From positions 62,001 through 126,000 of the forward strand of contig NZ_AYKF01000077.1 of assembly GCF_003732545.1 (NCBI RefSeq): a DNA stretch of 64,000 nucleotides, written 5' to 3'. The translations under genes were made by a program, and so were the position numbers. Each line of letters begins with the position of its first letter. The stretch's first letter is position 1. Positions 27,111-29,811 of the stretch are shown here, piece after piece. The notes under the pieces are model-generated. The model saw only the letters and a list, made by a program, of their open reading frames with translations. It made no database searches and was not told the origin of the DNA. The stretch comes from Salinisphaera orenii subsp. halophila YIM 95161 (lineage in GTDB: Bacteria; Pseudomonadota; Gammaproteobacteria; Nevskiales; Salinisphaeraceae).

Positions 27111-27766
27111 GATCGAGACTCCTGAAGCAGATGAATATCCGAAGATCGTCGGGCCGCGGCCACGGCGGCGGCCAGCTCGCGCGTGGCCGCGGCGCTGTCG
27201 GCGGCCGCGAAGAGGGCGCCGGCGACGGCGACGAGATCCGCGCCGGCCGCGATCAGACGTGGCGCATTGTGGGCGTCGATGCCGCCGATGGCGACCACCG
27301 GCACGCCGAGCGCGCGCGCGGCGCCGAGCACGGCCGGATCGGCCGGCGGCGCGTCGGGCTTGGTCCGCGATGCGAAGAAACGGCCGAAGCTGACATAGCT
27401 CGCGCCTTCGGCGACGCCCCGCCGCGCGCGCTCGAGCTCGCCCGAGCAGCTCACGCCGATGATCGCGTCCGGGCCGAGGCCCGCGCGGGCGGCGGCGATG
27501 CTGCCGTCGCTCTGGCCGAGATGGACGCCGTCGGCACCGCAGGCGGCGGCCAGCCGCCAGTCGTCGTTGATGATCAGGCGCGCGCCGTGCGCGCGCGTGC
27601 GCGAGGCCAGCGCGGCGACCAGCGCCTTGTCCGGCGCCTGCGGCCGCTTGTCGCGATACTGCAGCCACCGGGCGCCGTGGGCGAGCACGGCGTCGACGCG
27701 ATCGAGCGCGTCATCGGCCAGGGTGGTGCGGTCGTAGATCGCATAGACACCTTGGGACACGCTCAT
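27107..27766 (-). CDS. thiE: thiamine-phosphate synthase
   Basis: Joins the thiazole and hydroxymethylpyrimidine moieties to thiamine monophosphate. The 219-aa TIM-barrel protein shows the family motifs: [40 protein letters not shown] and [10 protein letters not shown]. Start and stop overlap those of thiD and hemL by four bases each, so the three genes form a translationally coupled operon. No TPP riboswitch was found upstream of thiD. Confidence 0.95.
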
Positions 27767-28536
27767 GGCAGGGGCCGGCGATCCGGTATCCGCTGGCCGC
27801 GGCCGGCGGCGAAGCCGTGTTCGATCGCACGCCAGGTGTAGTCCTGGGCCTGGGCGAGCGCGCGCTCGGTGGCGTCACCGCAGGCCAGGCGCGCCGCGAT
27901 CGCGCTGGCGAGCGTGCAGCCCGAGCCGTGAAAGACGCCCGGCACGCGCGGCCACTCGTAGGTGTGGGCCAGGCGCCCGGCGACGAATCCGCGGTTGACC
28001 ACAGCCGCGCCGTCTTCGTCGCCGCCGGTGATCAGCGCATGGCCGCCGGTGCGCGACAGGCGCTCGCCGCAGCGCGCCAGCTCGGATTCGCCGTCGCAGA
28101 GCAGCCGTGCCTCGGCGGCGTTGGGGGTGATCACCGTGGCATGGGCGAACAGCTGATCGCGCAACGCCTGGCCGACCGCATCGCCGGCGAGTGTGCCGCC
28201 GCCGGCCGCGCGCAGCACCGGATCGACCACCAGCGGAATGTCGGGACGCGCCTGCACGAGTTCGGCGATGGCCGCGACCTGCGCGACGTCCGCAACCACC
28301 CCGATCTTGATCGCGCCGAACGACATGTCGGCGATCGCGGTATCCAGACAGCGGCGGAAGAAACCGATCTCGACCGGCGACACGCCGTACACGTTGGTGG
28401 TGTCCTGACAGGTCAGGAGCGTGACCACGGTGGCGGCGTGGGCACCATTGGCGGCCGCGGATTCGATGTCGGCCTGGATGCCGGCACCGCCGCTCGGGTC
28501 GTGACCTGCGATGACCAGGATATTGGGGCGCGTCAT
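27763..28536 (-). CDS. thiD: hydroxymethylpyrimidine/phosphomethylpyrimidine kinase
   Basis: Phosphorylates HMP and HMP-phosphate for thiamine synthesis. The 257-aa ribokinase-fold protein has VIAGHDPSGGAGIQADI near the N-terminus, the IKIGVVAD segment, VDPVLRAAGGG, ITPNAAEARLL and the anion-hole HGSGCTLASAIAA motif. The start MTRPNILV at 28536 is chosen over an in-frame upstream extension that lacks similarity. It is the first gene of the thiD-thiE-hemL operon; its upstream region is the DnaA-box-containing gap. Confidence 0.95.
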   Translation of the reverse strand: MTRPNILVIAGHDPSGGAGIQADIESAAANGAHAATVVTLLTCQDTTNVYGVSPVEIGFFRRCLDTAIADMSFGAIKIGVVADVAQVAAIAELVQARPDIPLVVDPVLRAAGGGTLAGDAVGQALRDQLFAHATVITPNAAEARLLCDGESELARCGERLSRTGGHALITGGDEDGAAVVNRGFVAGRLAHTYEWPRVPGVFHGSGCTLASAIAARLACGDATERALAQAQDYTWRAIEHGFAAGRGQRIPDRRPLP

Positions 28537-29043
28537 GGCCGCGAGTCTAACACCGGGCGGCCGTTTTCCGGACGTTATGCACAATGCACGTCCGGGCGAT
28601 GGCGATCGGTCGCGGATTTTTTCCGGTTCTCGATATCGCACCCTCGATTATTGGATAAACTTCTGATTTTAAATCGGTGTGTCGGACTGGTTACAAAATC
28701 GCCGGTTTGCGCAAATCCCTGATCACATGCCCGATGACGCGCTTCGTTCGACGCGTTTCCACAGAGTTATCCACAGGTTTTGTGAATTCTCCTCGTTTAG
28801 CGTTTGCGCTCAATCGGTTAGCGGTTATAGCTCAACGAGTGTCTTTAGCGGCCCAGCGGTTATGCACAATGTCAACGGGGTTGTCGCTGAACAGAGGCTT
28901 TGTTAAGCACACGACTGCCTTTTTTTGTCATCTCGTAGGATTCTGAAAATAAACAATTAATGGTTGGAAGGCGGGACGTCCCGAGATATTTAGGCCGAAC
29001 TGACGCTGGGCGTCACGAGCGGACGCACAAACTATCCCCGGAT
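28537..29043. other. gene-free, AT-enriched stretch with perfect DnaA boxes: candidate oriC or DnaA-binding locus
   Basis: This gap of about 500 bases contains no credible gene and is visibly richer in A+T than its neighbours. It holds DnaA boxes, all in the + orientation: TTATGCACA at 28575-28583, TTATCCACA at 28767-28775 and TTATGCACA at 28860-28868. A fourth, TTATCCACA, spans 29044-29052 at the stop codon of the adjacent gene. A one-mismatch box TTAAGCACA lies at 28903-28911. AT-rich tracts that could unwind are at about 28646-28676 and 28918-28962. The context CCACAGAGTTATCCACAG (28759-28776) resembles box clusters near gammaproteobacterial origins. dnaA, dnaN and gidA are not in the window, so origin function is inference. 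Confidence 0.6.
28568..28595. repeat. inverted repeat enclosing the first DnaA box
   Basis: CCGGACGT (28568-28575) and ACGTCCGG (28588-28595) form a perfect 8-bp palindrome with a 12-base centre. The DnaA box TTATGCACA overlaps the left arm by one base and lies in the centre. It is 32 bases upstream of thiD, so it could be a thiD operator, an origin element, or both. Confidence 0.6.
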
Positions 29044-29811
29044 TTATCCACAGGCGTCCGCGACCGCGACCCGGTGCACGCGGGTGCACCAGCGGCCGTG
29101 GTCGTCCAGCTCGATACAGCGATAGCCGGGGCCGCGCTTTGGATCGAGACCGAAATCCGTCGCTCCCGGCAGGAACTGGCGCATGGTCGAGGGTGTGACG
29201 AGGCAATCGAAACCGCCGCAATCGATACGCGCGTCCTGATGGGCGTGCCCACAGACCACGGCCCGAACCTGCGGCTGCGCGGCCAGGCAAGTCCGCAGGG
29301 CCGCGCCGTCGTCCAGGCCGATGGCGTCGACCCAGGCACTGCCGACCGCAGCCGGCGGGTGATGAACGAACACGAGCGTCGGGCGGTGGGGGCAGGCGCC
29401 GAGCGTCTGCGCCAGTGCTTCGATCCGTCGTTCGCCGAGGTGCCCGGACGCGGTGCCCGGCTGGTGACTGTCCAGGGCGACCAACCGCCAGTCGCCGATA
29501 TCCAGCACGCCGTGCACGGTGGCCGCGGCGAGATGTCGCTGCATGCGCGCCGGGTCGTCATGGTTGCCGGCCATCGCCAGCACCGGTCGGCCGAGTGCGC
29601 GCAGGCGTGCGTCGAGACGCTGATAGCCGGCCACGCTCTCGTCGTCGACCAGATCGCCGCCCAGGACAAGGGCGGCGCAGTTCGGGTAACGGCGGAGGGC
29701 GTCGGCCAGCACCGCGCCGAAGCTCGTCTCGACCTGCCAGCCGTGCAGCCGCGCGTGCGCTGCCGCCAGCAGATGGGGATCGGTCAGGTGCAGAATCTCG
29801 AGCGCGGCCAT
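29044..29811 (-). CDS. cpdA: calcineurin-type metallophosphoesterase, CpdA-like
   Basis: A 255-aa protein with the complete two-metal phosphodiesterase signature: DPH near residue 11, GGDLVDD, GNHDD, VHHPP and GHAHQ. Overall sequence (LHLTDPHLLA at the start, RQFLPGATDFGLDPKRGPGYR near the end) matches the CpdA/Icc 3',5'-cAMP phosphodiesterase group, which lowers cellular cAMP. Substrate specificity is inferred from family only. Its stop codon TAA is part of a perfect DnaA box (29044-29052). It is divergent from the O-methyltransferase gene. Confidence 0.88.
   Translation of the reverse strand: MAALEILHLTDPHLLAAAHARLHGWQVETSFGAVLADALRRYPNCAALVLGGDLVDDESVAGYQRLDARLRALGRPVLAMAGNHDDPARMQRHLAAATVHGVLDIGDWRLVALDSHQPGTASGHLGERRIEALAQTLGACPHRPTLVFVHHPPAAVGSAWVDAIGLDDGAALRTCLAAQPQVRAVVCGHAHQDARIDCGGFDCLVTPSTMRQFLPGATDFGLDPKRGPGYRCIELDDHGRWCTRVHRVAVADACG

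Follow-up and report, generated by a model that had tools for sequence, protein, structure and literature searches.

A cluster of DnaA boxes between thiD and a cpdA-like gene

The window, a stretch of 64,000 nucleotides of Salinisphaera orenii subsp. halophila YIM 95161 (C77:62001-126000 of a draft genome in 153 contigs), holds a 507-bp gap between two minus-strand genes, bounded by the 5′ end of thiD and the 3′ end of a cpdA-like gene (Table 1). Both genes score under the curated cut-offs of their families: thiD reaches 178.6 bits against TIGR00097 (cut-off 204.95, E 1.3e-52) and the cpdA-like gene 178.9 bits against NF008359 (cut-off 225, E 1.4e-52). A protein of Salinisphaera orenii MK-B5 matches the cpdA-like protein with 100% identity, in keeping with the genus of the window. 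At 51.5% GC, against 67.3% for the window, the gap is AT-enriched, as a first-pass annotation had described it; of the boxes which that annotation placed in gene-free DNA, the one at 29044 lies outside the gap, its TTA being the stop codon of the cpdA-like gene.

Four exact copies of the DnaA box TTATNCACA, all in + orientation, span 478 bp at 28575, 28767, 28860 and 29044, and the near-match TTAAGCACA lies at 28903, just as annotated. There is no further exact box across the 64 kb, and 100 dinucleotide shuffles of the window contain 0.18 exact boxes on average and 3 at most, versus the 4 observed. The whole 3.79 Mb draft genome has 19, of which four are in the cluster; contigs other than the cluster's carry at most two each. 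Because this total is ordinary (19 versus 17 for the reversed control, hence no genome-wide enrichment), it is the clustering that is unusual. Boxes in pairs with shared flanking bases had been taken for selected or duplicated elements. These flanks are not kept in relatives; their differences there rule out a tandem duplication of box pairs.

Table 1. Features of the thiD/cpdA-like intergenic region (window coordinates).
Feature	Position	Strand	Sequence	Remarks
thiD, hydroxymethylpyrimidine/phosphomethylpyrimidine kinase	27763..28536	-		TIGR00097; 5′ end faces the site
Outer DnaA box ("box IV", our label)	28575..28583	+	TTATGCACA	192 bp before box II; 38 bp before the thiD start codon
IHF-type site	28656..28668	+	TAAACTTCTGATT	1 mismatch to consensus TAANNNNTTGATW; 111 bp before box II
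Conserved block	28687..28703	+	CTGGTTACAAAATCGCC	Between IHF-type site and core
Core box III	28755..28763	+	GTTTCCACA	Degenerate, 2 mismatches
Core box II	28767..28775	+	TTATCCACA	Exact
Core box I, inverted	28781..28789	-	TGTGAATTC (read on +)	Degenerate, 2 mismatches; 5 bp after box II
Additional exact DnaA box	28860..28868	+	TTATGCACA	93 bp after box II; part of the genus only
Near-match box	28903..28911	+	TTAAGCACA	1 mismatch
Additional exact DnaA box	29044..29052	+	TTATCCACA	Overlaps the cpdA-like stop codon; part of the genus only
cpdA-like gene, 3′,5′-cyclic-AMP phosphodiesterase family	29044..29811	-		NF008359; 3′ end faces the site

Geometry of the core and its flank

DARS and datA are known to control DnaA in E. 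coli, where Hda produces ADP-DnaA; DARS were reportedly first described by Fujimitsu in 2009. Hda is encoded in this genome (TIGR03420, 228 bits, above the cut-off of 194.8).

Two degenerate boxes absent from the first-pass annotation, at 28755-28763 and, inverted, at 28781-28789, turn the exact box at 28767 into a DARS-type core. Read on the plus strand, positions 28755-28789 consist of GTTTCCACA, GAG, TTATCCACA, GGTTT and TGTGAATTC. DARS1 (bioD-uvrB) and DARS2 (rppH-mutH) of E. coli MG1655 are built from box III, 3 bp, TTATCCACA, 5 bp and an inverted box I: the order and orientation of the boxes and the lengths of both spacers are identical to ours. Passages of PMC5742627 describe this spacing as common to DARS1 and DARS2, with box I opposite in direction to boxes II and III; our assignment of the E. 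coli boxes combines that description with our own reading of the sequence. The window therefore has the three boxes, the fixed spacing and the opposed box I of a DARS, its boxes I and III being degenerate with 2 mismatches in 8 each. The core pattern that we used, CACANNNTTATCCACANNNNNTGTG, includes a CACA placed 3 bp before box II, and all of its 17 specified bases are matched in the window.

Upstream of the core, on the box-III side, lie the IHF-type site and the outer box. The consensus TAANNNNTTGATW is the one given in the consulted sections of PMC4245941, according to which IHF takes part in E. coli DARS2 and the sites IBS1-2 are two 13-mers 3 bp apart. The E. coli DARS2 region (our locus L096) has a sole pair of 13-mers 3 bp apart with one mismatch each, starting at 729 and 745. 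This pair is on the box-I side, with starts 217 and 233 bp away from box II, and spans 217-245 bp as a whole; we assign it to IBS1-2, so that E. coli would apparently bend the DNA on the other flank than Salinisphaera. Here, the IHF-type site is found on the box-III flank at -111 from box II, together with a DnaA box at about -191; our scan of the order covered the box-III side, and the side in E. coli follows from our own assignment. The site is not classed as a DARS2 orthologue. On the box-III flank, E. coli DARS1 and DARS2 do have IHF matches with 2 mismatches at -111 and -109, possibly relics.

Between the IHF-type site and the core, the block CTGGTTACAAAATCGCC is kept in alignments of relatives, with the strongest conservation in the family.

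Position relative to the replication origin

A relocated or chromosome-specific origin was among the readings proposed in the first-pass annotation, and the DnaA boxes, the IHF-type site and the AT-enriched DNA would all agree with it. E. coli oriC likewise has DnaA boxes and an IHF site; box orientation and spacing differ here. Moreover, the genome's own dnaA locus is itself poor in exact boxes, with two (51641 and 53039), and the skew of its contig is near zero and has no sharp switch. By its genes, that locus is nevertheless the canonical one: on contig C110, one side is occupied by gyrB, recF, dnaN and dnaA, the other by rnpA, yidC and mnmE. The annotation rightly stated that neither dnaA nor gidA is beside the cluster, whose neighbours are thiD and the cpdA-like gene.

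The GC skew points to an origin elsewhere. We sampled 40 stretches of about 20 kb from a congener assembled as one contig of 4.14 Mb (G008). Its skew stays below zero as far as 1.449 Mb, is close to zero at 1.449-1.489 Mb, then positive up to 3.42 Mb and negative again from 3.45 Mb, with a single negative stretch at 1.589 Mb inside the positive arm. The switch from negative to positive skew, at roughly 1.45-1.49 Mb, coincides with dnaA (1.454 Mb), while the site, at 0.433 Mb, is 1.02 Mb away in a region where the sign does not change. Across the 260 kb searched around this dnaA, boxes are most densely clustered at 1454756-1454921, immediately after the match to the DnaA domain, where one exact box is joined by three with one mismatch. 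Around the site in its own genome the sign is equally constant: in 5 kb steps, contig C77 is positive throughout save one value of -0.001, and up to 12 kb from the site every 2 kb window is positive, some farther off being negative.

Two further observations oppose an origin. No match to DnaA, DnaN, MnmE, YidC or GyrB occurs in the flanks, up to about 1.5 kb, of 89 fetched loci, and two or more cores are present in 123 of 232 genomes of the class. Skew, gene context and copy number together speak against oriC, and an origin at this site, relocated or additional, is practically untenable. A plasmid origin was discarded too: the plasmid search gave two records, both matching at thiD-type genes.

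A position away from oriC is shared with E. coli DARS1 (bioD-uvrB) and DARS2 (rppH/ygdT-mutH region); in G008 the site is mid-replichore. Expressed in half chromosomes, E. coli DARS2 is 0.41, DARS1 0.66 and datA 0.20 from oriC, and the G008 site is 0.49 from dnaA, which serves as a proxy for oriC in our values (genome sizes except that of G008 are rounded to 0.1 Mb). In four single-contig genomes of the order (G008, G042, G045 and G080) the exact core, or in G045 its sole core, which has one mismatch, is found at 0.30-0.58; additional cores with one mismatch are located at 0.34 and 0.63 in G008 and at 0.43 and 0.48 in G080. Core positions in nine other single-contig genomes of the class scatter from 0.06 to 0.83.

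Conservation

Within the order, the core is present within one mismatch in 76 of 85 genomes, compared to 2 for the reversed control, and is missing at this threshold in 9. The annotation had named a skew minimum elsewhere and unconserved boxes as joint grounds for giving up its proposal; the minimum is indeed elsewhere, and the boxes are strongly conserved. The spacing is conserved as well. With both spacers left free (0-12 each), the core occurs in 53 of 85 genomes (control, 1 of 85). Counting by hand, with shifted readings of one site counted once, we found 67 distinct exact cores at the 3/5 spacing in 52 of the 85 genomes (recounted) and 6 distinct sites at other spacings, of which 2 can also be read as 3/5 with one mismatch.

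The outer box recurs as well. Exact boxes 180-193 bp apart, measured from the outer box to box II, are found across the genus, in a second genus of the family and in two further families. Of the 46 order rows, among which L007 and L015 represent one genome, 40 have an outer box of no more than one mismatch 189-193 bp ahead of box II; of the remaining six, L016, L104 and L130 have it at 177-180 bp, and none was found in L017, L126 and L128. In 23 of the 46 rows (hand count), the best forward IHF match is at -109 to -112 and has no more than 1 mismatch. In other rows the sequence at that place departs from the consensus by two or three mismatches, and the best match is elsewhere in L008, L017, L023, L026, L105, L106, L111, L118, L120, L121 and L127.

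The loci fetched through the cpdA-like protein, matched in 21 of 61 genomes, a few weakly, include exceptions: L017 has no exact box, L019 has one and L026 a different set, and there are no exact boxes in L027-L030, which are weak matches to other proteins. Within the Salinisphaera loci, the boxes at 28860 and 29044 have counterparts, at +93 and about +276, in L003-L006 and L018 alone; an exact box at the 28860 position is absent in L007, L008, L011, L019 and L021-L023. One of these records, L005, is titled Endozoicomonas sp. G2_2 and has the Salinisphaera arrangement; it may be misnamed.

In the class, we sampled 232 genomes, with at least 90% completeness asked for. The core within one mismatch is found in 191 (control, 1) and missing in 41, and there are two copies in 87 of the 232, some copies having one mismatch. 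An outer box followed after 160-190 bp by the exact core is present in 105 of the 232 (control, 0). Over the 150 places listed, out of a larger total, the distance from outer box to box II is 186-193 bp in 129, with a peak at 189-191.

The IHF consensus was not part of the search pattern. Of the first 30 class loci fetched, the flank filter kept 27; in 14 of these the consensus occurs at -108 to -112 with one mismatch at most, and 14 have an exact box at -186 to -194 (hand count). In a second set of 30 loci, 28 after filtering, 14 carry the consensus at -114 to -106 with no more than 1 mismatch and 22 with no more than 2; the other 6, all with an outer box, lack an IHF match of this quality at that place. 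Forward matches within one mismatch in these 28 loci concentrate at -108 to -111 (14), with three elsewhere in the 158 positions scanned. The two sets overlap (59 loci, 45 distinct) and are therefore not independent.

In a sample of the phylum, the pattern occurs in 90 of 150 genomes (control, 2). It is not confined to the class, since many genomes of one outside family (f171) have it; in this sample, some other families outside the class (f170, f180 and f183) are without the pattern.

Gene context

The boxes could belong to a DnaA-controlled thiD promoter and regulate thiamine synthesis, as the outer box is close to the thiD start codon and thiD adjoins the site in most of the loci examined in the order. 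ThiD is present in 24 of 24 loci with strong cpdA-like matches (L003-L026, several genomes being represented twice) and in none of the four weak ones (L027-L030). By blastp, it is also found in 26 of 30 pattern-fetched order loci, which cover families f2, f3 and f6 only, extra cores of f4 and f5 being outside the sample; among the four others, L104 adjoins PriA, and L108, L109 and L126 have no convincing ThiD match. The core, however, lies some 220-250 bp away from the thiD start, and in the class the same architecture is found away from thiD: no ThiD match was found in 30 class loci, while PriA is encoded in 17 of 45 distinct ones, including L132, L133, L150 and L187, and about 1.2 kb away in L135. 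Four of these proteins were confirmed as PriA against NCBIfam. Such contexts speak against a thiD-specific regulator, and we consider control of thiD very improbable as the role of the site. The neighbours also differ from those of E. coli DARS1 and DARS2, being thiD and the cpdA-like gene here and often priA in the class.

The genome's own contig C96 carries a weaker relative of the module directly before priA (L042:11809-12010; PriA was checked). Its exact boxes are 175 bp apart, an IHF match within one mismatch is at -99, and boxes III and I are degenerate.

Comparison with datA

The first-pass annotation had also considered a datA/DARS-like locus. Its DARS half is supported by the exact core geometry and the conservation. 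At a datA-like site, ATP-DnaA on boxes flanking an IHF-bound bend would hydrolyse its ATP and switch initiation off. The box-IHF-box part of E. coli datA does resemble our locus: it has a + box, an exact + IHF consensus and, 97 bp on from the start of that consensus, a second + box, and here an IHF-type sequence in the same orientation starts 99 bp before box III, between DnaA boxes, with a + box further out. Likewise, in six of the nine other single-contig class genomes a core is 0.06-0.33 of a half chromosome from dnaA, which brackets the 0.20 of datA, whereas the 0.49 of the G008 site does not suit it. The remaining details diverge. The outer box is 65 bp from the IHF site in datA and 81 bp here, the slot after the second box is held by an inverted box in datA and by the + box II here, and a strict 3/5 core with an inverted box I is the arrangement of DARS. 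We regard a datA-like function as unlikely.

Proposed function

Taken together, we interpret the site as a DARS-type DnaA-reactivating sequence and not a replication origin, with a probability of roughly 0.8. The boxes, their geometry, the IHF-type sequence, their conservation and their distance from the skew switch are direct observations; the element is real and selected, and by its anatomy it is a DARS whose layout is unlike that of the studied E. coli sites, from which we infer its function.

By analogy with E. coli work, from which the ADP-release mechanism is carried over, the spent form, ADP-DnaA, would bind box III, box II and the inverted box I. The DnaA molecules on boxes I and II would meet head to head, and their ADP would be loosened. 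Apo-DnaA would then depart and take up ATP, so that initiation could fire at oriC, located elsewhere near dnaA. IHF, if it binds at -111 from box II, would bend the DNA and bring the DnaA of the outer box (28575) to the core; such a bend would couple the activity to the cell cycle.

A bolder form of the datA-like reading unites hydrolysis and reactivation in one composite switch. Within about 215 bp, this switch would combine a datA-like outer box and IHF site with a DARS core, and it would recharge DnaA or hydrolyse its ATP depending on IHF. It would be a common, perhaps ancestral, gammaproteobacterial form, with one conserved home directly before priA, the gene of the replication-restart helicase; in E. 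coli and its relatives the two tasks would have become divided between datA and DARS1/2. We put this forward as a tentative possibility.

The precisely spaced layout of a three-box core, an IHF site and a fourth box recurs in many other Gammaproteobacteria and is apparently undescribed in the literature covered. The consulted parts of PMC4245941 and PMC8682772 report the conservation of DARS2 only among gammaproteobacteria related to E. coli, the latter naming seven species, with Vibrio cholerae and Shewanella denitrificans among them. In the portions covered of the literature on DARS outside E. coli relatives, including PMC5742627, PMC4585315, PMC8407004, PMC13220808, PMC3937223 and PMC12371093, we found no account of the box-IHF-core layout; subscription literature is mostly outside this coverage, and the term datA also matches "data". 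With a rigid DARS-type module in 45% (core and outer box) to 82% (core within one mismatch) of the 232 class genomes, DnaA recharging would be a general feature. It would also provide a second architecture for dissection, with natural variants for the question of how IHF times the reaction.

Additional cores

One-mismatch cores of the form CACGG..TTATCCACA..TGTG occur on the genome's own contig C122 (L045:3378-3402), in a region with tandem repeats, and in several Salinisphaera, with up to four within 5 kb. Cores of this type are also found at G006:C41:22412-27385 and at G008:C1:2748922 and 2751960. Two cores lie within 0.4 kb of each other at G288:C209:4942-5527 and at G020:C1:9804-10181.
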